Assembly (NCBI GenBank): GCA_037893245.1
Contig: JBAIAA010000076.1
Span: 62,001-126,000 of the forward strand
Length of the DNA: 64,000 nucleotides
From: Crossaster papposus
Taxonomy: Eukaryota; Echinodermata; Asteroidea; Velatida; Solasteridae
Direction of reading: 5' to 3'
Below are positions 12,401-62,089 of this stretch, piece after piece (the first letter of the stretch is position 1; each line of letters starts with the position of its first letter). A program made the translations under genes and the position numbers. The notes under the pieces are model-generated. The model had not been told where the DNA came from, searched no databases, and was given only the letters and a program-made list of their open reading frames with translations.

Positions 12401-15400
12401 AAGTGTTAAACATTTGCCAGCATTTATCATTAAAATTTTTTCCAAAAGTGAAATTAGCAAAACCGTTACCTTTGTTTCTGAAGCATTAAGTACAACATCT
12501 CCATTAAAAACTACTGTGTCGTCATCATCAAAGAGTTTCAACGCACTGGACTCGTATTCAGTGATGTTGATGCCATTTATCAATTTGTCAACCAGTAAAT
12601 TCTGCTCGAAATTCAAATCTGAGGAAAATATCTTGGTTCCTGTAATGCGAAAACATAAATAAGGGTCAGATTACTTGATGCGTGGGCGTCATGAAGACAG
12701 ACAAGTCTAGGAGCTGCACCAGAGTGATTTAAGAAAAGTTGGTTGCAGTAGCACAATGTGGTAATTGTTTTTTTGTGAGTTGTGTAGTTCTAAAAAGAAC
12801 TAGAGTAAACTCAATGTTTCGAAGAGTATTTGGTTCTTTTCCGAACAACAAATCCACAAAGAGAATTACCACACGGTGCTTCTGCAAACAACTTCTTATT
12901 ACCTTTTTAACCCTGCAAATCCCATACCTGTAATTTGTTGATTCCAGTCGTATATACATCAGCTGACATGGATGGAATATCCACACCATCAACTAGACCA
13001 GTGACATACCTGTGATTTGTTGATTCCCAGTCGTATATACAACATCAGCTGACATGGATGGAATATCCACACCATCAACTAGACCAGTGACATACCTGTA
13101 ATTTGTTGATTCCCAGTCATATATACAACATCAGCTGACATGGATGGAATATCCACATCATCAACTAGACCAGTGACATACCTGTGATTTGTTGATTCCC
13201 CGTCGTATATACAACATCAGCTGACATGGATGGAATATCCACACCATCAACTAGACCAGTGACCTGAGACGACCCATTCAGTCGCATGCCCCCTGCAAAT
13301 GATATACTGCCCTCTACTGTCTGCATGCCACCATTGACGAGCATCACATCCAAACCGAGGCCACCAGCTGTCAAATAAAAAACAAAATTGAAGATGTATC
13401 AAACTCGGTATACAATTTATTACCATTTTAAAATCATGACCCTAGTTTGTGTATCACATTTTCTTGCATGTCCGAGGTTCACTTGAAGATGCAACAGACT
13501 TGTGCAAGATTATAATATTCTTGCATACTTTGAGCCACAACCTCGTGAATGAAATACAGCAAATAAACATGCAAAACATTTTAAAAAGAGCAGCAAATTA
13601 CAGCAGACCCTACAACTAAAACCAAAAATGAGAAAATTCACGTATCAACCTTGATTGGCGTATTTACCTTACAATATCTTGATAAAGGTTGTTTACATAC
13701 CTGTTCTTGGGATACTATCGATACTCGTTTCAATAGTCATGTTTTCTACAGTTATGCTATTTAATGTCCAATTCTCAGCTAAAACGGCCTGCGTTGGTGA
13801 ATTTTCCAACAAAATGTCATCTGGAATAGTCAAGCCATCCACAAGTCCATCCACACTAAGATTGCCATAAACATCCACAGTTTGGCTGAAATTGTAATCT
13901 CCTGTTAAGGAAAAAAACCAAAAAACGGTGAATTGTTTAACTCCTCTAGGTGTATCCTTTTCAGGGTTATAGTCGAGTCCCTGCAAGTCCGTTCACAAGT
14001 CCTTTCGTGAAGCCAGTCACAAGTCCTTTCGTGAAGCCAGTCACAAGTCCTTTCGTGAAGCCAGTCACAAGTAACTGGACGAACAATGATAAAGGAATGC
14101 TTTTGTCAAAGCTGATTTGAATAGCTTGTGATTTGAATTGAAACTGAAGGACTTGTGATGGACTTGCAGGAACTTGTGATGGACTCGACTACATCCCTGG
14201 TCCTTTTGCTCTAATTACATTGCACATGGTATTACGACAGAGGATCCAAACACACGATAACAAAAGTCTCCTTAGAATCCTAGAAAGACGGTTTCCTAGT
14301 CAATTTGTCCTCGGTCGTTAGGGTAATATGGGGGTTAAGCTAAATTAAAGAAATAAAGGAAAAAACAAAGGTCTATCCTCATTATGAAATTCACGGCTGA
14401 ACGAAAATGTTGAGTGACAATATAACAAGTTTGGTCAAACACTGTAGATATGGATGGGGCCTTGCAGAAATTAACACTGAAGTTAGGACTACCACTACTA
14501 CTTAAGAAAGCCTACGAGTTCATAAATGAGCAAATAACATCAATGCGAAGTTTTGACCTTTATTTCATCATCACTTAGCGAGGTCCATTTACCCGTTAGT
14601 TGCTGGTACCCTGTTGTTTTCAACACTGTTTGATCAAGTTGTAGAATACTGACACCATCTACAGTACGTCCTGTGCCCATGGTAATGCCTATTTCTGGAG
14701 TCAGGTTACCGGTGAAAGTCTTGTTTCCTATCACAGCAAAAATATCACATTCAATTAGGTCATTGATAACTAATGTGGTACCTTGCCCAAACGACTGGTA
14801 ACTGAATTGAGGAATAGAATACAGGGCAGGACATACAATAATAATCATTTAGAAATTAGAGTGAGCCCCAAATTGAAAAACCTACACAGAAAAAGATTTT
14901 TGTTTAGGAGCAGTAGATGACACTTTAACACTCGTAAGTTCTCAATTGAGGACAAACTGCATGGTGCATATCCGCATACACTACTAATTTAAAAGGTCCA
15001 TACACCTGTAGCCTCTGTATGAATACCAGGCTTTGTTGGTAATGCTCTCTAATGTCCTTCCATCTTTCTCTTCATTCAGAGGAGACTTGTGTACAAAGTC
15101 TATATAACAATGATATTATCGAGTCCAGTGATGTCAAATACTGACGTCATTCCTGGGTTGGGTAATCAATATATCTTGGACTGTACAAACCTGTGACTGT
15201 AAAGTTGCCTGAAGTCAACACAGCATCTTGGTTGATAGTTGACAAATCACACCCATCCACTAGTCCATCCACTTCCACATTGTGGTTGAATGTAACAACT
15301 CCACTAATATTCAAATGATTCTGAATAGTTTGGTTCCCGTATGTTAAAAGAAGGTTGCCATCAGTCACATTGACTCCATCAATGTTTTGTGATACATCCA

Positions 15401-45132: not shown

Positions 45133-45219
45133 ATGGCTGAATCGCTGCGAAGATTAGTAAAGACTGGAGGCTTCAGTACCCTACAGGATAAACTTGACCA
45201 GTGGAGTGACAATTATTTG
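45133..45219 (+). CDS. SPATA18: SPATA18 exon 1
   Basis: Residues 1-29, MAESLRRLVK ... LDQWSDNYL. The donor TTTG/GTTGGT is weak but gives phase 0, needed for exon 2. The open frame continues into intron and a LINE, which would mislead a gene finder. Confidence 0.85.
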
Positions 45220-48200
45220 GTTGGTATTTCAAGTTCGTTAATCGTTGGCGCGCTGATCATGCAGTGCCACACCGCGGAAAATGGGTTGTCATGGCAATGG
45301 GGACGCTTGCCCTTTAATTTAGGCTTCATCCAGAAACTTGGAGTTATAAATAGGTTGCGTCAGTTTGTTGACAAGTTCACTCTCCAAATTTTGTACAATA
45401 CACTTGTTCTCCCACACATTGGGTCAAATACTCACGAGAAGTATCTTAAAAGGATTCAAATTCTTCAGAATCGTGCAGCTAGAATGGTTTTGGGATGTCA
45501 AATTAGAGATATTCATACTGAGGATTTATATAAGAAACTTGGCTGGATGACAGTTCGCCAACGCAATTTGTATTTCAATGCTAATTTAATGTACACTGTG
45601 TTAATGGTTTAGGACCACAATATTTAACTACTAAGATTCAATCTCATATTGGTGTTCATACTCACAATACTCGTCACAATTCCCAAAATAATATTGCCTT
45701 CAACGTTGTTAACTCGGATTCCGGTAAACGAATGTTCCAATATTCAGGTGGTCAGATTTGGAATGATTTACCCCTTATACTCAAACAGTCTCCATCCTTG
45801 ATGACCTTCAAACTAAACCTAAAAAAACACATTTTAACTTAAATTTATCATATTTGTGTAGTCTGTTTGCATCTGTCATGTATTTCTATTTGTTTGATTA
45901 CATGCTTGGGCCTTGGAGACTGTTGTCTTTTTTATTTTTGATGACTAATGCGGCACTTCCCGAGTTTTACTTGCATGTACTGTGTGGCTATATCTGCTGC
46001 ATGGTACATGATTAGACCCAAGCATGTATCTGTATCTGCACTTTCTGCATCATTTTTAATTTTTAAAAAATGATTCAACCGGTTCAAACTATGTTTGTAT
46101 CCATTTTTAATCTATGTGTTTCTTAATCTATCAATTTTTAAATAGGCTCTAATATTTCAAATTATTTAAAATAATTTATTTATGAAATGGTATAGTGATC
46201 AGTAATTCTTATAATTAGAGGGCTCCTTTGGAAAGCAGTTTGTTAACTGAAAAGGACTACCCTCTTTAAAGATTACAATAAATAAATAAATCCATAAACT
46301 GTGTAGGCTATGGCCAGGCTCTCAAAGTCAAAGAAAGCTTAAAGGTAGTATACACCATTTGCAGATATCGAAAATATTTACCACCGAATTATTAAGAAAT
46401 ATCTTACTCAATTGAAAGTAAATAATGATTCCAGGCCTTCAGCAAAAGGATTGCACTAGATATCCTGAATTTATTCGAAAAAAAATGAATTTTATAAAGA
46501 AAAATTCGCTCTCGCCGGACGGCAATCGCGAAAAAACAAAGATAACATAAGAATAACTGATCGACCCCGGTTGAAAACAAACGATGTTTTTCGTGCTTTT
46601 CTCGGCATCCATGATTGTAAAACTTTGGAAAAGTCAGTTAAACGATATTTACTATGAAATACAACCCCCCAAATCTACCCATTCATGATAATTCAAGCAA
46701 TTACCAATGGTGTCTTTAAAGATGATATAAAATATGGGAATGTTATATGTGATATGTGATAGGTGGACTTGGGGCGCGCTTGGGATTTCTCTTTTTGTGT
46801 TGGGTATAAAATTATAGGTAAGCTAGGTAGGGCGCTCTCCGTGTTTTAATAAAAATATTCATTTAATTTGTTGCTTTTTTATCTGATGACTCAAACTTGT
46901 AATCCTATGCAGGTGAATACATGTGATGAAAATGTTAATCGATCCTGTGAGTTGATTGAGTTATCATCGCGTCTGCAAGGCCAACTCTTCCTAATTCTAA
47001 ATCTCTCGGCAGCAGAAGGCAAGATTATTTAAATTAAATTTTAATTCTTTGGATTGGCTAGCACAGTAAACCTTATTTTAACCAGTTCGCGCCGGGATTA
47101 TAAGGTTGTTTCACGTTCCGCGGCCATCTTGGATTCAGTGCAAAAAGAGGTACCCGGATGATAGCGTGTTTATATGGGTGTTCCCCTCTTACGTGTAGTA
47201 GGCCTACAGAGGGCGCTCTACTGAGCATGCGCAACTGGAACGTTGAAACAACCTTATTTTAACATCGCCGAGCCGACGGCCGGTATTATTTTTAACGAAA
47301 CTCGATCCGAAGCAGGTTCTGGCTGATAGTACCGGGAAGCACACCCACGCATTATCGGCCTTGCGCGCTGCCGACATACATTTCCGAACTTGAACTTGGC
47401 GTGTTTATGCGTCATCCGTTTTGAATTTTGGAAAATGTTTGCGTTTATATACGCCATCCAGCGCGACTGGTTAAAAACATCACCCAGTATAACTGCAAAA
47501 GTTACTATGTGCCATGTGGTTTGTAAAGTTGGTTACGGGTACTTGATTCCATAATCTTGAATCGGTTCCTGACATCAACATTCGGGTATTTGAGTACCCG
47601 GTTCCGATGCACAGCCCTATGGCAAAGAAAACGGACAATTAGCATTGTAATTCCTCCAACTTCTGACTATATGTTTCATTTTTGTAATGACTACATATAC
47701 AGGTGGTATATATGGTGGATGTGACGCACTGAAGAATCGTCTGTTGCCATGGTTAACTCAAGGTTTTACATCAAGCAATGCAACCACAGACCTGAGTTTA
47801 GACATGATGGCTGATGTTGCCAAGAAAGACAGAGCTTTGTCTAAGATGAGAGCAGATTTTGAAGCTCAGTTACAAGACCTAGAGGAGGACCTGAATACCT
47901 CCAGGGATGTCTCAGATTCACTCAAACTAGAGTAAGTTTGTTTACTTTTGAATCTTTCTTGTTCAGTTTTTATGCTATTTTGCTAGATATCAACACTGAT
48001 TCTGTGACTGATAGCGTTGGATAATATTTCTTGCCAAAAGAGCTTAACTATACTTACCTTAAAAAACATAACTCTTTTTCAGTGGCTCACCTGTTTAATG
48101 TCTAATTTAATTCTTTTTATGAAAGCCGGTCGCACAGAATAACAACCATTGTTGCATTATGTTTGGAAATTAAGTGTTAAGCAATTGATTTCCTGTTCAT

Positions 48201-51200
48201 GAATAGCTTTAAGGCAATGCTTTAGACACATTTTCCTCTTCATTTCCAGTTCCACATGTACTTCAAAATATGCATTGAAAATTAAAAGTCCCAGAGCATC
48301 TGACACAATACCAATATTAAAAAGGTTGTTTGTGCATAATTAATCCAGCAGGTGGAACTCTTAAACACCTGCCATTAGTCTGAAACCAATTAAGGTTATT
48401 AAGAGGCACGTGATAACTACAACATATTCTAAAGGAAATAGGACATTTTATAAAAAGAAATAGGCAGCTGAAAGTTTTTTGCTGATTGGAATTGTAAATT
48501 CGAATGTAGTGATGTGTTCATCATCAAATATGCTGGGACTAAAATATGAAGCCGTTGTTTATTCCTCTTGTTTTCTCAAAATAAGAATTTATCATAAAAA
48601 GGTTGTGCAAGAAAAGTAAATACAAAATATGTGGAATTGAAAGTTTATTAACCCTTCTACTATGAGACTTCTTTATGTCAAGTCAGTGGTACACGCCAAA
48701 TCACTCCAGCTGCAGTGCGTTGAACAATTCTTTCCATGTACAGTGTACAATGAATTGCACTTTTGTAGTTGGTGAATAGGCACGTGGCTTTGCTTGTCAG
48801 TGTGATACATAACATGGTAGACTCAGCATGACCTAGTTGACCTGCAATTTACTGTGATGGCATTCCTTGGAGTAATTTGAAGTGTAATGTAAAAACTATA
48901 GGGCTTTTTTGGGGGGCCACTGTTGAAGTGCTTTGGAGTGCAAACAAGAGCAAGCTATATGCACAGACGAGACCCACAAAAGTTAGAAGAAACATAAAAG
49001 TAAACCGACGTAATCGGGAAACGGGTTATGGATGACCTTCAAGTGTTTCAGATTTGTTATTTTGTGTGTGTTTCTATTCAAAGATTGCAACAAACAAAAT
49101 CTAAGCTGGAGGAGGAGCGTTCTGCATCCATGGGAGAGGCAATACTGAATGAAGAAGATACAATCAGACTTAACTCTAGGTAAATCAAACAAATCCAGTA
49201 TAGATCAGGTATAAGTTGGATCAGTAGCAGATTGTTTATGAATCTATGAGGACTAAAGTGAGCCATGTTTGCTTTGTCCTGCAATAATCAATTGTATTCC
49301 TTATATTGTTGTCAATGTATGGGATTTGTTGAGCTAGAAATGACAAAGGGATGCGTGACCATCTATCTATTGTGGTTTCATGTAAACATGGTAAACTGAT
49401 TTTTGCAAATTTTCAACTGAATAAGCATGAACCCACAAGGTATTTGTTACTTAGAGGGATGATTATGCTGCGTTCCAATCGCGTCGTGTTTATCGTGTTC
49501 ACCGTGTTCACCGTGAATTTCTCCATGTTAACGAGTAGGTTGCATTCCAAGACGCACGCGCACAGTCGAGTTAGTCGTGCGGTAAGGACATTCTTTATCG
49601 CACAAAAACTCGTACGTGAACGAACACGCATGCGCGAGTATTTCATTCGTTATGAAGTCGTGAACATGGAGAAAACAATTCCACCTCAAGTTCACGACTG
49701 GTGAACACGAGTTACCGGGCAATTAGAACGCCATTATACGACTCGTGAACTCGTGAACACGATAAAAACGACGCGATTGGAACGCAGCATATGTGACATA
49801 CTTACTGCATTTCTACTTCTTGGGGAGCCCTCAGTTTGACTGTTGTCCTGCTAACTGTAAGGGATAGTACCGTGAGGGTGCAGGCATCTAGCATTGAATT
49901 CTGCCCTCTACCCTTTTGATTTTTACATTACTGCTATTTCTTATGTTTTAATTATTCATAATAATAGCGTCAAAGCCCTGAAGGATGAGCTTGATGTGTA
50001 CAAGTCTCGCGTTGGTGTTCTGGAGAGCTATGAGATTGAAGCTCGTAGATTGAGAGAAGATGTCAACTTATTGAGAGAAGAGAAGGCCGTTCTAACAGGG
50101 AGGTAGGTGAACTTTGTCTATTGTGCAAATTGAGATAGATTTCTTTGTGAGTAGTTCATCCATTGCATTCAAACAGTTTATTCTTGGTATAAATCACAGG
50201 TTGCAGTACGTAGAATGCCATGGACCAGTGGTTACCGTGTTTGACTCTTGTACGATGGTTCGTGGGTTCGAACCCTGCCAGGAACATTGTGTTTGTGCAC
50301 TTTGGCAAGACACTCGACTACAATTGCCTCTCTCCACCCAGGAGTATAAATTGGTACCTGGAGAGTCGAGGCTAATTGAGCGCCAATATCGGCAGCCGCA
50401 TGGTCTAGAGCCTGATGCACAGAGTAATAATTGTAAAGCACTTTGAGACTGTTGATAAGCCTGCCAATTAGTTCCCAACTGTTCAATTCCCTTAGTCAGA
50501 TTTTCTTGTTCTTGATGATTTTGCTTTTTGCAAGATAAATTATCGTCCCTGCCTCCTTCTAGCCCAGTAAGCTACTGTTTCAGTCAGTAGTGATGTTGAG
50601 TTTTAACTACTTTGATTTCTTGTTCTTGATGATTCCTATCTTGCTAGGATGGATTATCTGACATCGCCCCTCTATCCTTCTAGCCCACAGTCTACTGTTT
50701 CAGTACTGATGTTGAGTTTTAACTACTTTGATTTTCTTGTTCTTGATGATTCCTATCTTGCTAGGATGGATTATCTGACATCGCCCCTCTATCCTTCTAG
50801 CCCACAGTCTACTATTTCAGTACTGATGTTGAGTTTTAACTACTTTGATTTCTTGTTCTTGATGATTTATATCTTGCCAGGATGGATTATCTGACATCGC
50901 CCCTCTACCCTTCTAGCCCACAGTCTACTGTTTCAGTACTGATGTTGAGTTTTAACTACTTTGATTTCTTGTTCTTGATGATTCCTATCTTGCTAGGATG
51001 GATTATCTGACATCGCCCCTCTATATCCTTCTAGCCCACAGTCTACTGTTTCAGTACTGATGTTGAGTTTTAACTACTTTGATTTTCTTGTTCTTGATGA
51101 TTCCTATCTTGCTAGGATGGATTATCTGACATCGCCCCTCTATCCTTCTAGCCCACAGTCTACTGTTTCAGTACTGATGTTGAGTTTTAACTACTTTGAT

Positions 51201-54200
51201 TTCTTGTTCTTGATGATTTATATCTTGCTAGGATGGATTATCTGACATCGCTCCTCTATCCTTCTAGCCCACAGTCTACTGTTTCAGTACTGATGTTGAG
51301 TTTTAACTACTTTGATTTCTTGTTCTTGATGATTTATATCTTGCTAGGATGGATTATCTGACATCGCCCCTCTATCCTTCTAGCCCACAGTCTACTGTTT
51401 CAGTACTGATGTTGAGTTTTAACTACTTTGATTTCTTGTTCTTGATGATTTATATCTTGCTAGGATGGATTATCTGACATCGCCCCTCTATCCTTCTAGC
51501 CCACAGTCTACTGTTTCAGTACTGATGTTGAGTTTTAACTACTTTGATTTTCTTGTTCTTGATGATTCCTATCTTGCTAGGATGGATTATCTGACATCGC
51601 CCCTCTATATCCTTCTAGCCCACAGTCTACTGTTTCAGTACTGATGTTGAGTTTTAACTACTTTGATTTTCTTGTTCTTGATGATTCCTATCTTGCTAGG
51701 ATGGATTATCTGACATCGCCCCTCTATCCTTCTAGCCCACAGTCTACTGTTTCAGTACTGATGTTGAGTTTTAACTACTTTGATTTTCTTGTTCTTGATG
51801 ATTCCTATCTTGCTAGGATGGATTATCTGACATCGCCCCTCTATATCCTTCTAGCCCACAGTCTACTGTTTCAGTACTGATGTTGAGTTTTAACTACTTT
51901 GATTTTCTTGTTCTTGATGATTCCTATCTTGCTAGGATGGATTATCTGACATCGCCCCTCTATCCTTCTAGCCCCGTCAGCCCACGTTCTACTCTTTCAG
52001 TGAGTAGTGATGTCGTGCAGCGTGTACGTCTGTCTCATCTGGTTACTCGTTTTGGTGAGATGTTCTCGCGTGATCGTATGGATGCCATGGATATCCTTCG
52101 TACATTGTCTGATGATCATGACATCAATCAACAAATTGTCTTCGCATGTGCTGAGGTAATTACATTTATGTAGTTAGCGCTTCAACAAAGGCAATAATTT
52201 GACATTTGATGGTAACAGCGAAGTTGTACAATGATGTTGACTTCAACTATATATGGCAAGTTAGGTAACATCATAATGTATGTTTTCCCCATAGAGCTAT
52301 ATTGAATTACTAGAGATCTAGCTCGATGTACAAAGTGATGCCCGCTGGGCGCATCCATGTGCACAAACCTTTGAAAAACTCGAAACTTTGTACGGCTTTT
52401 GTTGGCTATTTGCATATCTGCGTTTGCGTTACTGAACCCGATACGCTTAAAACTGAAACGCACGATCAACAAATGAGCGTTTCATTTTTTGTCTGCGCAA
52501 GCAGCACAAATCATTCACGTGTGCGTATGTATCTGCTGCAGATGACTTTTATTTTTGCGCGTAAGTTGTTTGCGTCTGTTCTACTTACACGCGCGTTGCA
52601 TTTAGAGTACACTGTCAACATTCAATTCATCTATTTTTATTGTGTTCTACAACACGCACATGAATAAACAAATTCTGCGTACAGGATGGATTCGATCTCC
52701 GCACGAAAAAAATGAGGAGTTAGCGCTCTAGTAATTAGTCTAGGGTTCTCTCACTGTTTGTAAAGTATTGGAGGCTTACAGAGCAAGGAATGATAGAGGT
52801 AAAAGTGGGCCTATTCTCATCGCCAATATTTAGTGATCACAAATACAAACAGATCAACAATACAATTCTTATCATGCACAAATCAGTGTGGTGATAACTC
52901 ATCATCTATGCCCACATGAGGGCGCACTACAGACAAAACATGGGTTAAATTGCTTCACAAGTATAGTTAATTTTTATCTAGTTATGTCTTGTTTCATTAA
53001 CCCTAACCCCCTAGGCCTTACTTTGGGCTAAAGAACGGCATACTACAGAATACTACTTAGTATTTTGTAGCATTGGGTCTCTCCGTGACTGATGATTGGG
53101 TGTGTACTGACAGAGTACAGATACTGCCAACTACAAAATACTAATAGTGGCAATACAGGTCAGTAATACTTACCTGGCAAAAAATGCAGTAGTCAAGCCT
53201 TGACCCAATGCTGTGTCCCAAGTGACAATTTTTGCTGTAGAGTTGAGAACACCCTACACAGCATACATGGGCCATGCACACTCGGCAAGCAGAGGGACCC
53301 AATGCTAATTGGGGTGAAGTACCAAATACTAAAAATTACTACAGGCATTGCACACAAGTCAGTGAGAGTACTGCATACTACTCCTTACTACTAGTAGTAA
53401 AAAGAAGCATTAGGTAGGGTTAGGGTTAAAGAATTTGAGAATGCTATATTGCGATAAAGCATCCAAAAGTGCCCCGTATGAGACATTGGAACAGTGAGCA
53501 TTTTGTTTTACATTTATGTGTACATGTAGTAACAATTATGGTCTCTTCATTCATATTTTCTTTATTTTGCATTATGCTTGCCTCTTTCTTTCCAGGAGGC
53601 CTTTCATTGTGCTAAGAAAGCCTACCGTTTGTATCGTGGTAAGGTCCGTAGTACACTGCAACTCACTCACACTGGACCAGAAACCCTGGAAGAAGCTGTG
53701 CAGAACTACATCAATAAGAATGGACAGCTACTTGATGTTCATAGCATTGTACAGGTAGTCAATTAGACCCGACTGAAATGATGGAAAAACAGACCCAACC
53801 CAATCTGAAGACGGTTTTGGGACAGGTCAAATTCGATTTTGGGTCGGTTTCAGACAACATTACACTGAAACAAGACAATCTGATTTGTTCACAGTAAAAG
53901 GTTAGCGGGGTTACACCTACAGGCATTTCATAGGAACACATAGGTGTATGAACAAACGAATGTACACAGGGTACAAAATTTAGAAACAAAGTCATTAAAG
54001 TGCTTACCAATAGCACTATTTTAAATTACTATTCATTAAAAATCTTGTGGTATTCCTTCTTCAACTGTAAACTCTTTGCAATTTCTGTGAACTACCAAAT
54101 CCAAGTTCAGTATATATATGTGACCTGTCATCACAAAATGAGCGTAAAGTCGGCAAAATCAAAAATTGAGATATGGGTATTTCTAAATTCTGTGGAAACA

Positions 54201-57200
54201 GAGCTTTCCAATGGTATATAACACTTGGAGGTTTGATACTCAATATTTTTTTTATTTTTTTTTTAGTCTGGAGTCTTAATACAGAGATTATGAGAAAACG
54301 GGAATTTTTTGCGAGAAATTGTGTGAAAGGCATAGAAAGGCATAGTCAAAATTGTCTCAAAAACTAATTTTGTTTTTATCTGATCGTCCTGAAAAATTGG
54401 GAATTGATTATTGGGGATTTAGTCTTTAAAAAAACGTATAATCTCAAAATCAACCACCCCTTCAAATTTTGACTTTGACTGGCCGTACTGGGAAATCACT
54501 CTGTGCGACTTTATGCTCATTTTGTGATGACAGGTCACCTATTAGACCACTATGACAGTGAACTAATGTATTGATATCGTTCAACTTAAATGAAGTACAA
54601 CCATTCTCGTTTCATTTAATCGTAAAATCTTTGCAATTTATGTGAACTACCAAATCCAAGCGCAGTATATATTAGAGCACTCGGACACTGAACTAATGTA
54701 TTGATATCGTTACAACCTAAATGAAGTACAACCATCCTCGTTTTATTTAACCGTAAAATCTTTGCAATTTATGTGAACTACCGAATCCAAGTGTAGTATT
54801 TGACCACTCGGACAGTAATGTATGGACATCGTTACATCGTTACAAGTACAATTATTTTTGTTTCATTTAGATGGATTTTATTTGTTTCTTCCCCTCCCCA
54901 GGATGTGTTACTGGCAATGAACACTCATCCAGTTTTGTCTTATCCCCCTGAGGTGGATTTCAAGTCTCTTTCTCGCTTCATTCGTGAGTTAGTCAAGGTT
55001 GCTTGGGATATGTGTGCCTTGCCTAATCCATTGGATATTGTACCAGCTAGGAAGGGTGAACTGTTTGATGACCTCAAGTGAGTATGAACATCATAATATA
55101 GCACTTGCTAGAGTCACAAAGCCATTAGAAACCTCCATGCAACATATATCTACAAAATACTTGACAAATTTGCCCAAATATATTATAAAAATCATATAGC
55201 ACTTGCTAGAGTCACAAAGCCATTAGAAACCTCCATGCAACATATATCTACAAAATGCTTGACAATTTAGCCAAAATATGTTGGTAAAATTAAATATGCA
55301 ACATATCTACAGAATACTGCTAGTAAAATCATATAGCACTTGCTAGATTCACAAAGCCATTAGAAACCTCCAGGCTCCATGCAACATATATCTACAGAAT
55401 ACTCGACAATTTGGCCAAAATATGTTGGTATGAAATCGTATAGCACTTGCTAGAGTCACAAAGCCATTAGAAACCTCCATGCAACATTTATCTACAGAAT
55501 ACTTGACAAATTAACCAAAATATGCTAGTAAAATCATATAGCACTTGCTAGAGTCACAAAGCCATTAGAAACCTCCATGCAACATATATCTACAAAATAC
55601 TCGACAATTTGGCCAAAATATGCTAGTATGAAAATCATATACAGCACTTGCTAGAGTCACAAAGCCATTAGATACCTCTGTGCAACATATATCTACATAT
55701 CAATAATTTGGCCAAAATATGTTCCTCTAACGCATGCCCCCTTCCTCGTAGCATTCACAGCCATGATGTGCTAGCAGATAGAGAGCACTATCAACAAGGT
55801 GAATCAGAACCAGCTGTTTGAACTCTGGCACTTGAACCAAAGCGCTGTAATTTTCCTCTCGAAATGCAGTTTTTAAAGTTGTACCGTAAAATGGCTAAAA
55901 TTTTGTGGCACATCTCTAAATGAATACAATTTGAGTTGATTTATTTTTTTATGTTTATCAGGTATCGTCGTAGCTACGATTCTGAATATTCAGCTGGTTT
56001 GGTCAGTCATTATATCTGGCCTGCACTACAAGAAGTCATAACAGGCAAGATACTGCTGAAAGGAGAGGCTGTAACTAGACGTGGGGCTACCCTTGTAAGT
56101 TGATCAGTTATCTAGGGCCAATTTCATAGAGCTGCTAAGCACAAAAAAATGCTTAGCGCAAAAAAAGTGTTGCTCATTAAAAACAGGTTACCAGCCCAAA
56201 TTCTCTGGTTTTTCAGGCTAAGCTAAGATTATCAATCGAAAACAATAAAGGCCACGTGAAAATTTGATCTGTAACCTTGTTTTTGCCAAGGACAAAGTTT
56301 CATGCTAAGCATATTTTTGTGCTTAGCAACTCTATGAGTTTGCCCCTGGTATTGTCATGTTGTATTGTAATGGTTGTAAGATTGAGATAACAAGTTTACT
56401 ATTAAAATTGTTAAATGGATTAAATCATTTGTTCATTTATCTCAGATGTGGGATTTGTTACAAACACTGCCTTCACAGGTTCTATAAGATATCTCTAGGT
56501 GGGGATAAACAAGCAAAGGTAATGATTCTTGTTTGTCACAATTAAAAGTAGGGTACACCATTGGTAATTGCTTGAATTATGAATGGGTGGATTTGGGGTG
56601 TTGTATTTTATAGTAAATATCGTTTAACTGACCTGTCCAAAGTTTTACAATCATGGATGCTGAGAAAAGCAAGAAAAACGGCGTTCGTTTTCAACCGGCG
56701 TTGGGCAGTGGTTTTTATGTTGTTTTTTGGTTTTTTCGCAATTTGTTTTTAATAAAATTTAATTTTCCGGGACAATTAAAGGATAACGAGCGCAATCATT
56801 TTGATAAATCTTAATAAAAAATAATAAATCTTAATAATTCGGTAGTAAAATTGTTTGATATTTGCAAATGGTATATCTTACTTTTAATGTATTTGTGGGA
56901 ATCCACGACAGTTTTACCTGCTTATCACTGCTGTCTTCGCATCGGTCACATGTTTCCATGATACTTTGGGTGTGAAAAGACAAGTATGTTAACATGCCTT
57001 GTGAAATAATACAAGCGCTGTATGATGAAATAGTGAGAATTAAGTACACAAACAAAAATTTATATAAGTTTGTCAGTTAGTCTGTTTGTAATATATGAAC
57101 ACACAAACCCATCCCTTGTTCTGATCGAGGGTGACATCCATTTTGGCAGCCAAATTGCTAACCTTAAACTTGTTATTGCCATTTTGCTAGTTGATAATTG

Positions 57201-60200
57201 TACATGGACACTAAGTTTTAATTATTTGCCACGAACATTTACCACACTTAAAACTCAACTGAAATGGAAAAAAATGACAAAACATAAATATTTCTCTACC
57301 TACCTAGATTTTGTTCCAGCCGATACTGTTAAACACACCATTTATTTTGTTTGGCCTTATTACAAAAAAGCATGTCATCTACATGTAGCTTCTTCTACAA
57401 GATTATATTTAAATAACACGTCGGCCTACACTGCCATTTTAAAGTTTTATTATCAAAAAATGTTAATTATTCTCGAGTAAAAATGGCTCCCAACTGTAAT
57501 TGATATTTAGAGATGATAATACAATTAAAAGTTAACTCATTGTATGTACACAGTTGGTGTTTGGTCAAGACTAAGAAACCAATATTAGCTGAACCACGAG
57601 AGTATTACAGCCACTTGATCTTCACAGGACAAATACGCTGTGTAATTAAACCTCTGCTCTCATGTTATTGACATAACGAACCCCACCCATGCTCATGCTA
57701 AAATCAATAACATGACACGTTTTTTTCCTACAAGGTTGTGATTTGGGTCAGGATTGATCCATATATTTATTATTTTGAAGAGGGCAAGTCTAGGAATTTA
57801 CGCAGACTATGTTCCATACGTAACGGAAGTTCAGCCTTCTAAGATATTTATGAATTTCAGTGTTTTGTATTACATTTTGGGTTTGCAAAGAGATTACCCA
57901 AAGGAATCTTGATGTAGTCTTTGCGATGATAATGTAATTAAAGAAAACATGGCAATACATATGGGACAAAAAGGGGACTTGCTCAAGAACAAATCTTTAT
58001 ATATTGTACTGGGTATACAACAGTTGAACGCCGCTATACCGAACATTCGGCTATACCAAACACACCAAACATAAAGGGGACTTGCTCAAGAACCAATCTT
58101 TATATTGTACTGGGTATACAACAGTGGAACGCCGCTACACCACACATTCGGCTGTACTAAACACAATACTTGGCTCCAGATTTTTGTATCCAAACATACC
58201 AAACATAACATTGTAGAAATTATGTCAACTTATTTCTAGAAATTCACTGGGTGTATCAAACACTATTTAGGCCGTTATCATTTCCCAAACGTCTGGTGCT
58301 TTATGTTTAAAAGAGACGGGTGGCTATTATTCCCCAATGAATAGAAGGGAAAGCCAACCGTTCCTTTAGAATTCAGTTTAATGGATAAAAGAAATAGGCC
58401 ACAAGAGGGGGTGCTATTTAAAATGATGGGCACCATCTTGAAAGATGTGCACATGATGTACCAGGGAGTGAAAATCACTATAACATACGATTGATATACC
58501 GAACAAAATCTGTGAATCCCGTAATGTTCGTTATAGCAGCGTTCAACTGTAAATAGAAATGCTCATAATTATGATTTCATTTTTGTATTGTATTTCATCA
58601 ATTGTAGGCTTCTCCAAGAAGAAGTCGTAGTCCTAGCCGATCTGTAACCCCAAGGAGTGGGAGGTCACCCAGTCCTCGTCGTGTCATGGATGGCTCCTTG
58701 AGTCCTGCAGGTAAGAATTCAAGAAGTCGTAGTCCTTGCCGATTTGTAACCCCAAGGAGTGGGAGGTCACCCAGTCCTCGTCGAGTCATGGATGGCTCCT
58801 TGAGTCCTGCAGGTAAGAATTTAAGAAGTCGTAGTACTAGCTGATCTGTAACCCCAAGGAGTGGGAGGTCACCCAGTCCTCGTCGAGTCATGGATGGCTC
58901 CTTGAGTCCTGCAGGTAAGAATTCAAGAAGTCGTAGTCTTAGCTGATCTGTAACCCCAAGGAGTGGGAGATCACCCAGTCCTCGACGAGTCATGGATGGC
59001 TCCTTGAGTAATGCAGGTAAGAATTTAAGAAGTCGTAGTCCTAGCCGATCTGTAACCCCAAGGAGTGGGAAGTCACCCAGTCCTCGTCGAGTCATGAATG
59101 GCTCCTTGAGTCCTGCAGGTAAGAATTCAAGAAGTCGTAGTCCTAGCCGATCTGTAACCCCAAGGAGTAGGAGGTCACCCAGTCCTCGTCGAGTCATGGA
59201 TGGCTCCTTGAGTCCTGCAGGTAAGAATTCAAGAAGTCGTAGTCCTAGCTGATCTGTAACCCCAAGGAGTGGGAGGTCACCCAGTCCTCGTCGAGTCATG
59301 GATGGCTCCTTGAGTCCTGCAGGTAAGAATTCAAGAAGTCGTAGTCCTAGCTGATCTGTAACCCCAAGGAGTGGGAGGTCACCCAGTCCTCGTCGAGTCA
59401 TGAATGGCTCCTTGAGTCCTGCAGGTAAGAATTTAAGAAGTCGTAGTCCTAGCCGATCTGTAACCCCAAGGAGTGGGAGGTCACCCAGTCCTCGTCGTGT
59501 CATGAATGGCTCCTTGAGTCCTGCAGGTAAGAATTTAAGAAGTCGTAGTCCTAGCCGATCTGTAACCCCAAGGAGTGGGAGGTCACCCAGTCCTCGTCAA
59601 GTCATGGATGGCTATTTGGGTCCTGCAGGTAAGAATTTAAGAAGTTGTAGTCCTAGCCGATCTGTAACCCCAAGGAGTGGGAAGTCACCCAGTCCTCGTC
59701 GTGTCATGGATGGCTCCTTGAGTCCTGCAGGTAAGAATTCAAGAAGTCGTAGTCCTAGCCGATCTGTAACCCCAAGGAGTGGGAGGTCACCCAGTCCTCG
59801 TCGAGTCATGGATGGCTCCTTGAGTCCTGCAGGTAAGAATTTAAGAAGTTGTAGTCCTAGCTGATCTGTAACCCCAAGGAGTAGGAGGTCACCAAGTCCT
59901 TGTTAAGTCATGGACGCGACTCCTTGAGTAATGCAGGTAAGAAATCAATTGCTACTCCGGAAAAAAAATTGACATCTCATCATCCCTTCAAGTTTCACAA
60001 AAAAAAACTTATTTTTTTTATTCTGTGAACAAAACCTTACTACACATCATTTTGGAGGTCATTCCAAGTAAATTTGTGTCTGAATTAGGTTGCGGCTTCA
60101 TATTACGCACAAGTCTATGAGATGTGGCTGCAGCCGCTACCATAGACTCGTGTGTAATATCAAGCCGCAGCCAAGTAATTGGGACTCAGCCTTTGTGCTA

Positions 60201-62089
60201 TATGAGATATGATGTCATTATGTTCTGATAATTAAGCTCTGTTTACTTTAAGTGGCTGTTATGCTCTTTAGTTTCAAGTTGTTATAAAGTGTTGTCTTAA
60301 ATCTCCCCTTTAAAAGGTTACTCGGCCATAAAGGCATTACTGATGTGAAATTATTTTGAATATAAACACAGTGTGTTTGTTTTAGATTACAGAATCACCT
60401 GAGTAGTTCACACAACCTAAGGCAACAAGATTATATTGAACAAGTAAACTTCAAGCCACCTTGTCAGTCAAAAATGCCTCTTCTTTACATTAAATTGTCA
60501 TCAACATTTTGTGTTCTACCGATCTTATTTCCTTTTGGTTACTCAAAAAAAAATGATTAAAGTTAATGACATGCTGCGAATTTTATTGTAACCCACATAT
60601 ATTTCTTTGTGACATTCCTTAAATGGGCCAAAAATGCACTACTATACTGTTATGCATGTATTATTATGATTATTATTATTAATATTTTCATTCATCTTGA
60701 TATGCAACCTGTGTTTCTATTATGTCCTAGTTCCATGTTTATACACATAACACGACTTCACTCTGCTTGTTAATTACCAGTATGACCTATATACAGATTT
60801 GAATCAATAGTTGGCTATATATAGCTCACGGAAACAAAAGCCTTTTAATATAGACAGAGGGAGACAAGTGCGCTAGCTAGACTGTAATTCCACACACAGT
60901 GGATATTTATTCTTGTACTTGGAATGGGATGAAAAGCCTACAGCTTTAGTGATTGTGTACATTGTGCAGATGTGCATGTTGTTATGTAGACTACTCTATG
61001 TCACTTTATCAGCGATGGATTTTAGCCAGAAGGTTTCATACTGGAACGACATGATTCACATTTTGGTTGAAACCCAAACTGCTATTGGCACTTGCTATTA
61101 ATGGCAACCGGTGTATGTGTACTTAAATATATCACTGCTGCTAGCTAACCAATCCAATGATAATAGTTTGCCGTTGCAAAAAAGCATAATTTATTGCAAA
61201 CGGTAGAAATGAAAAAGAATGACTCGCAATGAAAATGTGTCGAAACTTTGAGGTTAAAAAATAGGCATTTTCTGAAATGTTCTATATACAGGCATTCTGT
61301 CCCATGTTAAAGGTAGTATACACCATTTGCAGATATCGAAAATATTTACTACTGAATTATTAAGAAATACCTTACTCAATTGAAAGTAAATAATGATTCT
61401 AGGCATTCAGCAAAAGGATTGCGCTAGATATCCTGTAATTATTCCAAAAAAATGAATTTTATAAAGAAAAATTCGCTCTCGCCGGACGGCGAGAGCGAAA
61501 AAACAAAGATAACATAAGAATAACTGCTCGACCCCGGTTGAAAACAAACGCTGTTTTTCTTGCTTTTCTCGGCATCCATGATTGTAAAACTTCGGAAAAG
61601 TCAGTTAAACGATATTTACTATGAAATACAACCCCCCAAATCTACCCATTCATGATATTACCAATGGTGTATACTACCTTTAAGCCCAGTTTAAACTCGG
61701 AGTGAAAGCGAACGCAAATGCGAATTGTTGACGTCGCAGAGAGTTTTCGTGCTGCGAATTTTCAAAAGTTGAACACAATTCAATTCCGGAGAATGTTCGC
61801 AGCGAATGTTTGAAAAACCGTATCGCTTTTTCTCTCGCATGAAATATGAACTGACATTTAGTAAAACAATATCTTTCTTATTGAATTGTTTTATCAATGT
61901 AAAACAAATGAAGATCTTATTCTCAATTTGCCATTTGACAGTTTGATTTTTTTTCTCTTAATATAATATAATATATGTTTTTCTCTAAATTTAATGAAGT
62001 CCCTTTTTTTGTTTTTTTAAGGTTCTCGCCCTGGCAGTAGCTTGTCTCCAAGACCAATAAGTGCTGCCTCCTCATTTTCCAGTTACTAA
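45133..62089 (+). CDS. SPATA18: Mitochondria-eating protein (SPATA18/MIEAP), 11 exons
   Basis: Eleven exons give 503 residues (human ~538) with consistent phases: 45133-45219, 46913-47018, 47703-47931, 49084-49179, 49968-50102, 51936-52155, 53596-53754, 54902-55077, 55962-56094, 58608-58710, 62022-62089. The N-terminus MAESLRRLVK and the CDENVNRSCELIE and LKNRLLPWL blocks match the family N-terminal region. Residues ~85-217 are coiled coil. Residues ~245-447 are the MIEAP C-terminal domain (HPVLSYPPEVDF, RFIRELVKVAW, YRRSYDSEY, KGEAVTRRGA). The tail is Ser/Arg/Pro-rich. MIEAP is a cytoplasmic/mitochondrial protein for clearance of damaged mitochondria. Oddities: a GC-AG intron 2, twelve tandem acceptors before exon 6 and thirteen tandem donors after exon 10. 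Confidence 0.93.
45310..46300 (+). mobile_element. LINE 3' fragment (reverse transcriptase C-terminus and tail)
   Basis: The translation has LQILYNTLVLPHI, KRIQILQNRAARMVLG and LGWMTVRQRN, then after a one-base frame change GLGPQYL and GGQIWNDLPLILKQS: the C-terminal part of a non-LTR reverse transcriptase. It ends in AATAAATAAATAAAT, a simple LINE tail. A frameshift near 45605 and 5' truncation mark it as dead. It lies in SPATA18 intron 1. Confidence 0.8.
46338..46717. mobile_element. Family B copy 7
   Basis: TTAA at both ends, AGGTAGTATACACC at the left, a shortened right end (GGTGTCTTTAA). Very close to copies 1 and 9, including AATTCGCTCTCGCCGGA. Confidence 0.75.
46913..47018 (+). CDS. 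SPATA18: SPATA18 exon 2, GC donor
   Basis: Residues 30-65: VNTCDENVNRSCELIEL, then LQGQLFLILNLSAAE. Acceptor aatcctatgcag. The 3' boundary that restores the conserved 'AEGG' junction with exon 3 is GAAG/GCAAGA, a GC donor. No GT lies nearby in phase. Confidence 0.85.
47078..47474. mobile_element. Family A copy 4 with nested element
   Basis: Bounded by TTAACCAGTTCGCGCC and GCGCGACTGGTTAA. A 145-base element (47111-47255, ends TAAGGTTGTTTCA and TGAAACAACCTTA) interrupts GGGATTATTTTAAC, which is intact in copy 5. Confidence 0.75.
47703..47931 (+). CDS. SPATA18: SPATA18 exon 3
   Basis: Residues 65-140: GGIYGGCDALKNRLLPWLTQ, a Ser/Thr linker, then the first coiled coil (KMRADFEAQLQDLEEDL). Acceptor ctacatatacag, donor TAGA/GTAAGT. 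Confidence 0.9.
48652..48955. repeat. Dispersed repeat, paralogue of 20525
   Basis: Shares ordered blocks with 20525-20822 in the same orientation; no coding potential. Confidence 0.6.
49084..49179 (+). CDS. SPATA18: SPATA18 exon 4
   Basis: Residues 141-172, coiled coil: LQQTKSKLEEERSASMGEA and LNEEDTIRLNSR. Acceptor gtttctattcaaag, donor TCTAG/GTAAAT. Confidence 0.88.
49467..49792. mobile_element. MITE with ATGCTGCGTTCCAATCGCG ends
   Basis: The 22-base terminal repeat is mirrored exactly at the right (CGCGATTGGAACGCAGCAT). The interior repeats GTGAACACG / CGTGTTCAC. CpG-rich; open frames here are by-products. Confidence 0.75.
49968..50102 (+). CDS. SPATA18: SPATA18 exon 5
   Basis: Residues 173-217, coiled coil: LKDELDVYKSRVGVLES, then RRLREDVNLLREEKAVLTG. 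Acceptor attcataataatag, donor GGAG/GTAGGT. Confidence 0.9.
50205..50460 (+). mobile_element. tRNA-derived SINE with Deu-like body
   Basis: A box-A-like ATGGACCAGTGGTTACCGTG and a perfect box B GGGTTCGAACCC are followed by CTCTCCACCCAGGAGTATAAA and the tail AAAGCACTTTGAGACTG. Better preserved than the copy at 17838. Confidence 0.8.
50520..51935 (+). repeat. Minisatellite of 116-119-base units, each with the exon 6 acceptor
   Basis: Eleven copies precede exon 6, each carrying CTTGCTAG/GATGGATTAT, the next ~45 coding bases and a short intron-like spacer; a partial unit starts near 50520. First bases after the acceptors are 50648, 50765, 50881, 50997, 51116, 51232, 51348, 51464, 51581, 51700 and 51817, then 51936 for the true exon. 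Only the last acceptor leads into the complete exon. Confidence 0.92.
51936..52155 (+). CDS. SPATA18: SPATA18 exon 6
   Basis: Residues 218-291: MDYLTSPLYPSSPVSPRST (Ser/Pro linker), then VTRFGEMFSRDRMDAMDIL, the start of the C-terminal domain. The acceptor is chosen as the last of twelve because only it keeps the frame open to the donor GCTGAG/GTAATT. Confidence 0.88.
52997..53429. mobile_element. TTAACCCTAACC-ended element with unrelated interior
   Basis: Begins TTAACCCTAACCCC and ends GGGTTAGGGTTAA, like the elements at 32670 and 34050, but the interior is different (repeated TACTAC / GTAGTA and CCCAATGCTAATTGG segments). Confidence 0.7.
53596..53754 (+). CDS. SPATA18: SPATA18 exon 7
   Basis: Residues 292-344: EAFHCAKKAYRLYRGKVRS, then EEAVQNYINKNGQLLDVHS, helical part of the MIEAP C-terminal domain. 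Acceptor ctttctttccag, donor ACAG/GTAGTC. Confidence 0.93.
54035..54880. repeat. Three ~135-base intronic tandem units, first split by a MITE
   Basis: Units share CTTTGCAATTTATGTGAACT, ACCAAATCCAAG, CAGTATATATTAGA and ATGTATTGATATCGTT. The MITE at 54119-54539 interrupts CAGTATATATTAG in the first unit. Confidence 0.7.
54119..54539. mobile_element. TA-flanked MITE with TGTGACCTGTCATC ends, second copy
   Basis: 421 bases, very close to 39778-40202. Comparison with the neighbouring tandem unit shows an extra TA, as expected for a TA target duplication. Confidence 0.8.
54902..55077 (+). CDS. SPATA18: SPATA18 exon 8
   Basis: Residues 345-402: NTHPVLSYPPEVDFKSLS, RFIRELVKVAWDMCALPNP, LDIV, the most conserved block of the family. 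Acceptor cccctccccag, donor TCAA/GTGAGT. Confidence 0.95.
55085..55715 (+). repeat. Intronic tandem array of ~100-120-base units beside the exon 8 donor
   Basis: About six units of ATAGCACTTGCTAGAGTCAC, AAGCCATTAGAAACCTCC, ATGCAACATATATCTAC and CCAAAATATG, starting within ten bases of the exon 8 donor but not containing it. Confidence 0.85.
55962..56094 (+). CDS. SPATA18: SPATA18 exon 9
   Basis: Residues 403-447: KYRRSYDSEYSAGLVSHYIW, PALQEV, KGEAVTRRGATL, the end of the C-terminal domain. Acceptor atgtttatcag, donor CCTT/GTAAGT. Confidence 0.95.
56113..56347. mobile_element. MITE with GGGCCAATTTCATAGAGC ends
   Basis: The left end CCAATTTCATAGAGCTGCTA is mirrored by TAGCAACTCTATGAGTTTG. It repeats TGCTTAGC hairpins. 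A partial relative is at 35696-35800. Confidence 0.65.
56541..56889. mobile_element. Family B copy 8, reverse orientation
   Basis: TTAA at both ends, AGTAGGGTACACC at the left and GGTATATCTTAC at the right. Confidence 0.7.
57968..58552. mobile_element. Inverted-repeat element with partial internal duplication
   Basis: CAGTTGAACGCCGCTATACC at 58020 is mirrored by TATAGCAGCGTTCAACTG at 58534-58551, TA-flanked. A ~115-base piece with the left end is duplicated in tandem (near 57968 and 58077). It resembles pogo/Tigger ends; that is inference. Confidence 0.6.
58608..58710 (+). CDS. SPATA18: SPATA18 exon 10 (SR-rich tail)
   Basis: Residues 448-481: RSRSPSRSVTPRSGRSPSP, then RRVMDGSLSPA. Acceptor catcaattgtag, donor GCAG/GTAAGA, phase 1. 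A second donor at 58813 would add 34 in-frame residues of the same repeat; later donors lie behind TGA stops. Confidence 0.88.
58711..59950 (+). repeat. Array of 102-base units, each with the exon 10 donor
   Basis: Twelve further copies of exon 10. Donors CCTGCAG/GTAAGAA begin at 58711, 58813, 58915, 59017, 59119, 59221, 59323, 59425, 59527, 59629, 59731, 59833 and 59937. Spacing is exactly 102 (34 codons) except the last. Units after donors 2, 3, 6, 7 and 12 carry AGC-TGA where others have AGC-CGA. Confidence 0.95.
60085..60190. repeat. Palindromic fragment shared with 44730-44830 and the foldback element
   Basis: GGTTGCGGCTTCATATTACGC is mirrored by GTGTAATATCAAGCCGCAGCC, around CATAGACTCGTG. 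The same motif lies at 44735-44825 and in the centre of the foldback at 31380. Confidence 0.6.
61307..61683. mobile_element. Family B copy 9, complete
   Basis: The cleanest copy: TTAA + AGGTAGTATACACC at left, GGTGTATACTACCT + TTAA at right, 377 bases with the flanking tetramers. Confidence 0.8.
62022..62089 (+). CDS. SPATA18: SPATA18 exon 11 (C-terminus)
   Basis: Residues 481-503: GSRPGSSLSPRPISAASSFS and a TAA stop. Acceptor tgtttttttaag, in phase 1 with the exon 10 donor. Confidence 0.85.

Follow-up and report, generated by a model that had tools for sequence, protein, structure and literature searches.

The locus examined here raises the question of what a row of thirteen 5' splice sites is doing at the end of a single exon. 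In a window of 64,000 nucleotides from the echinoderm Crossaster papposus (the whole stretch of DNA that was analyzed), exon 10 of one gene is followed by tandem copies of its own end, and a preliminary description had suggested that the protein tail could grow in steps of 34 residues by choice of donor. We consider it quite likely that this array (array C) is instead a minisatellite of the type called mirages in lancelets, lying astride the exon-intron border, with copy 1 being exon, the rest intron, and the nearest donor the one most probably used.

Judging from its conceptual protein, the gene that bears the array is SPATA18/MIEAP, since the translation of exons 6 to 10 matched the MIEAP domain (Pfam PF16026) with an E value of 9.6e-56 and 189.3 bits against a cut-off of 27. 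Exons 3 to 11 could be joined into a single open frame of 421 residues plus stop that ends inside candidate exon 11, and in this gene model the array does follow exon 10, as originally numbered.

45133..47020, plus strand: putative exons 1 and 2 of SPATA18, from presumed homology; approximate, with ends not fixed (ATG at 45133, exon 2 from 46913).
47703-47931, 49084-49179, 49968-50102, 51936-52155, 53596-53754, 54902-55077 and 55962-56094, plus strand: SPATA18 exons 3 to 9, from splice-site inspection and the joined frame.
51936..52155, plus strand: SPATA18 exon 6, with an open frame through the exon from acceptor 12 of 12 only.
58608..58710, plus strand: SPATA18 exon 10, an R/S-rich tail that ends CAG/GT in phase 1 and holds unit copy 1 (from the sequence, the joined frame and the Pfam MIEAP match).
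60386..60404, plus strand: candidate last exon 11 (predicted), tgtttgttttag/ATTACAGAATCACCTGA, with matching phase and a stop after five residues (D Y R I T).
58619..59948, plus strand: array C, 13 tandem copies of a unit that joins about 90 bases of exon to the first 12 of the intron, with a CAG/GTAAGAA donor in every copy (from Tandem Repeats Finder and donor spacing).
58842..58844, plus strand: TGA of unit 3, the first in-frame stop when donor 3 or a later one is used or the intron is retained.

Tandem Repeats Finder described array C as 13.0 copies with a period of 102 bp and 94% matches, in agreement with the thirteen tandem donors first noticed, and a 13-copy array of this kind is not due to chance. 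The donors begin at 58708 and all 13 read CAGGTAAGAA, which confirms that GTAAGAA is kept in every copy. The repeat had been called exact and all of its donors in frame. The spacing is indeed 102 in 11 of the 12 intervals, but 104 in the last, and because of this last spacing donor 13 is out of frame, whereas donors 1 to 12 are in frame. Exon 10 sequence ahead of the first unit reads TCTCCAAGAAGAAGTCG, within the array GTAAGAATTCAA (or GTAAGAATTTAA) joins the exon part GAAGTCG directly, and past the last copy the intron continues as GTAAGAAATCAATTG. Every unit spans from GTAAG to CCTGCAG (two end in AATGCAG), and therefore units could conceivably be removed whole, one at a time, leaving the mRNA unchanged with respect to that made with donor 1. 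Within the unit, the CAG at its end resembles an acceptor most closely, yet this match is no better than expected by chance (shuffle P = 0.175).

We give very little credence to an assembly artefact, in which misassembly inflates the copy number. One lancelet mirage was reportedly misassembled in a draft genome (PMC3087553), and the copy number in our window could likewise be off; however, the copies of array C differ from each other by private changes at scattered positions, and like arrays recur at many unrelated loci (see below). In searches of the species' own 1.02-Gb assembly, whose counts are lower bounds, the SPATA18 array was found on one contig only, and no place outside the array was reported for its first two units.

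The array sets narrow limits on what could be translated. CGA has become TGA in units 3, 4, 7, 8 and 13, that is, after donors 2, 3, 6, 7 and 12, exactly where the preliminary description had placed the stops, and unit 13 has two additional ones. With donors 3 to 13, or with the intron retained, translation halts at the TGA of unit 3, and the claim that growth is limited to the first two donors holds. If donor 1 or 2 were spliced to candidate exon 11, translation would end at the stop of that exon, and the part encoded from the beginning of exon 10 onward would measure 39 or 73 residues, respectively. A switch of tail length, with donors 1 and 2 both used so that the C-terminal tail has either one R/S-rich unit of 34 residues or two, is in our view unlikely, although the two donors are identical and both keep the tail open into candidate exon 11. 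An extra unit could also be tolerated, as MIEAP is described as having disordered regions with R and S repeats in which the charge clusters are conserved while the sequence diverges (PMC10845071), and the R/S-rich tail of exon 10 may be one of those regions. However, of the 19 unique changes found in copies 2 to 12, 14 were nonsynonymous (13.4 expected from placing the same base changes at random), 4 synonymous (4.6 expected) and 1 a stop (1.0 expected). Because the classes of change match random placement, these copies are without visible coding constraint, and the constraint on the extra unit that a length switch would require was not found, the copies fitting the neutral expectation. Copy 2 itself carries two private amino-acid changes, which argue against the switch, a number too small for a test of its own.

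At the ten donor bases, 0 of 110 cells were changed in copies 2 to 12 versus 30 of 1012 elsewhere (P about 0.05), which could be a hint at retained donors. It nevertheless seems very improbable to us that donors 3 to 13 are decoys for poison splicing, by which nonsense-mediated decay would lower SPATA18 output with the copy number as a dial. All of them place the stop 70 to 1092 bases ahead of the junction, and early stops follow from acceptors 1 to 11 of array B as well (see below), but the trend toward kept donor intactness is weak. With donor 1, exon 10 would be 103 nt long; donor 2 would extend it to 205 nt and later donors to more than 300. Exons of more than 300 bases are disfavored under exon definition; the donor beside the exon body would be favored because donors 3 to 13 bring exon 10 above that size, which speaks against decoys too. 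Moreover, the duplicated splice sites of lancelet mirages are reported not to disturb the mRNA (PMC3087553, PMC3902484).

What stands out in array C is that its donor is the exon's own, and two further arrays in the window are also located on splice sites.

50584..51974, plus strand: array B, 12 tandem copies at a spacing of 116-119 that take in the last part of intron 5 and the first part of exon 6, with a CTTGC(T/C)AG/GATGG acceptor in every copy (from Tandem Repeats Finder, acceptors and frames).
12923..13263, minus strand: array A, 4 tandem 86-bp copies, each with a CAG/GTATG donor, at the end of the exon 13367-13182 (from Tandem Repeats Finder).

Three of the four arrays in the window (period 60-300, at least 2.5 copies) are thus on splice sites. 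In A, B and C alike the border falls inside the unit, which contains both exon and intron sequence, and the splice signal is present copy by copy (13 of 13 donors in C, 12 acceptors in B and 4 donors in A). Acceptors 1 to 11 of array B hit stops after 21 to 82 residues, and acceptor 12, adjoining the exon body, alone keeps the frame, so that this array, belonging to the same gene, cannot work as a switch of length. The last exon bases offered by array A are 13182, 13096, 13010 and 12928; its minus-strand gene, for which no Pfam family scored above its cut-off, is possibly TSPEAR-like. The fourth array of the window has a 98-bp unit, extends over 55096-55721 (55313-55721 in one scan) and starts about 20 bases past the exon 8 donor at 55077, which it does not include. 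Two-copy repeats at 54540 and 57966 were below the 2.5-copy limit.

For comparison, 120 stretches of 10 kb were drawn at random on 20 long contigs known from earlier matches, and the first eight of these held no array with a period of 60-300 and at least 2.5 copies, versus 4 in the window, although so few stretches make a small sample and the window itself had not been picked at random. When the units were shuffled, the presence of the splice signal was weakly unusual, with P values of 0.03 for the donor of A, 0.075 for that of C (a strong donor within a unit of this composition being only mildly unusual alone) and 0.095 for the acceptor of B, the last of which scores the best match in the unit, an AG other than that of exon 6.

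To look beyond the window, the genome was searched for three CAGGTAAG donors at 91-121-base spacing. This donor triple was found at 253 places, against 87 for the reversed motif, the latter mostly in short-period arrays, while a dinucleotide-shuffled motif gave 426 places, nearly all of them, among the matches listed, from two arrays of 50 and 58 bp. A T-extended donor was found at 23 places versus 52 for its reverse, and a search at 121-151-base spacing gave 307 versus 90. Because the shuffled motif exceeds the donor triple (426 against 253) and the T-extended donor falls below its reverse (23 against 52), the raw counts are no proof of a genome-wide enrichment of donors. The acceptor triple was found at 794 places and its reverse at 324, but these counts were set aside, as one dispersed repeat made up 9 of the 11 sequences listed; this repeat is present on many contigs and contains a repeated TTTGCAGGATTGAGG. 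Another observation made along the way is that a 5.3-Mb contig (G000:C8) has stop-free COX1 frames and is probably a bacterial chromosome within the assembly.

Within the window, splice-site arrays involve two genes and both the donor and the acceptor side. Among 15 further stretches with long-period donor arrays, 12 were judged by inspection to contain an exon, with acceptor, open frame and donor, that ends in copy 1 of the array; at L040 this exon has GTGAGT as its own donor. As for the rest, the array of L009 resumes in L010 beyond an insertion, and L051 and L054 were without a clear exon assignment. Two of the 15 (L051 and L056) derive from the control motif, L010 and L044 represent a single locus present on two contigs, and the set omits L025, L057 and C87, with units of 33, 42 and 52 bp, respectively, as well as the loci with 121-151-base spacing. 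Only 3 of the 12 exons passed the Pfam cut-off (OST-HTH/LOTUS, EGF and DLIC), the other nine resting on splice signals and frame. In three sets of peptides, 6 of 9 from exons outside the window, 5 of 5 (best E value, 0.0016, below the cut-off) and 3 of 3 had no Pfam family above the cut-off, and searches of the PDB gave no match. L056 is possibly SERAC1 and L052 possibly ADGRV1/Calx-beta.

Of the 16 tabulated donor arrays, 6 have a unit length divisible by three and 10, one of which is in the window, do not. The 102-base unit of SPATA18 therefore needs no coding explanation, which weakens the case for a length switch further: with an unremarkable unit length and copies 2 to 12 free of coding constraint, the proposed growth of the tail in 34-residue steps was not borne out. 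Across the same 16 arrays the donor 9-mers were at a mean 73rd percentile of intactness (range, 0.07 to 0.99), although 14 of the 16 had been chosen for intact donors, and the acceptor of array B was at 0.41. At nineteen spots along a single contig (G000:C121:159769-1094879), donor arrays with about 146-base spacing appeared in match runs of 1 to 13, as if they were a paralog cluster in which each member has its own copy number.

Copy number could be compared directly at the LOTUS exon (L009, L010 and L044), which is followed by 20 donors on contig C5 (3 + 17, the array being split by an insertion with inverted terminal sequence) versus 11 on contig C125. Between the two contigs, identity is 99.1% over the 705 bases that precede the array and 99.8% over the 1000 bases compared after it, while farther upstream there are pieces of 93-94% and one of 85% identity. 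The simplest reading is that C5 and C125 would represent two haplotypes.

A donor-bearing minisatellite with a unit of 12 bp reportedly supplies multiple splice donors to a human interferon-induced gene, IFI6 (6-16); array C resembles it in bringing several donors into one transcript and differs in its 102-bp unit. A closer parallel is found in the lancelet mirages, minisatellite-like duplications of exon-intron borders known from Adh3, globins, TnC and PGBD5; their units measure 10-160 bp and lie on the donor or the acceptor side, and many of the copies carry splice signals (PMC3087553, PMC3902484). The arrays described here share with those of Adh3, BflGb6, BflGb9, TnC and PGBD5 the border-spanning unit, the occurrence on either side and the presence in several genes of one genome. 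The mirage of BflGb6 also differs in copy number between two haplotypes, with 3 and 6 copies (PMC3087553, PMC3902484). In contrast, the host here is an echinoderm, SPATA18 combines an acceptor array of 12 copies with a donor array of 13, larger than those of BflGb6, and splicing was examined in lancelets while the SPATA18 arrays are known from DNA. A lancelet origin of the assembly was considered and rejected on mitochondrial evidence. In COX1 on contig C1841 (16,330 bp), code 9 was the only one among codes 4, 5, 9 and 13 to yield the residues expected, with AAA read as Asn in MIGGFGNWL and AGA as Ser in NNMSFW. Downstream of cox1 are frames read as nad4L and cox2, upstream of it tRNA-Leu, Tyr, Leu and Gln, and a frame read as nad1 is on the other strand, a gene order that indicates an echinoderm and probably a sea star. 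A search for the GFP family found nothing, but neither did its controls, so it carried no information on this point. Expanding minisatellites at human exon-intron borders may form novel introns; the internal tandem repeats described there, in segmental duplications, are alike in border position but have an average unit of 30 bp and 4 copies and belong to recent paralogs (PMC2812944). Tandem duplication across AG/GT offers new splice sites and can yield new introns, as proposed in a model (PMC3087553) and in a case from potato (PMC4974935). The units of SPATA18 run from GT to AG as this model needs, whereas the copies here look like passive intron. Our literature search, limited to open-access articles, found no comparable arrays in echinoderms.

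Coming back to the border minisatellite that we favor, we infer both the route of duplication and the choice of donor. A segment of 102 bases, about 90 from exon 10 and 12 from intron 10, would have been duplicated, probably via short microhomology, and then have grown to 13 copies by slippage or unequal exchange; the junctions between units would fit a single initial duplication, at a short stretch of shared sequence, with expansion afterwards. Copy 1 would stay exon, while copies 2 to 13 would be intronic, drifting neutrally with homogenization among them. The spliceosome most likely pairs the acceptor of exon 10 with the nearest donor, and with this donor in use the mature mRNA would be mostly normal. 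A tail longer by one unit through donor 2 and silent splicing unit by unit are both possible.

A broader reading is more speculative, and we put it forward only tentatively. Border minisatellites may constitute a genome-wide class in this echinoderm, shared with lancelets or parallel to theirs, that makes and erases spare splice sites and so supplies new positions for introns and new ends for exons; as each unit runs from GT to AG, some introns may be removed unit by unit, and SPATA18, with arrays at exons 6 and 10, may vary in tail length, heritably or somatically.

In the literature searched, arrays of duplicated splice sites have so far been described as a lancelet peculiarity. Because they occur in an echinoderm genome, the phenomenon is not confined to that group, and its occurrence here in many genes suggests that such repeats either have an older origin or form more readily than has been assumed. 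The arrays also provide natural test cases for how the spliceosome selects a donor when as many as 13 are identical, and for the gain of introns through tandem duplication.
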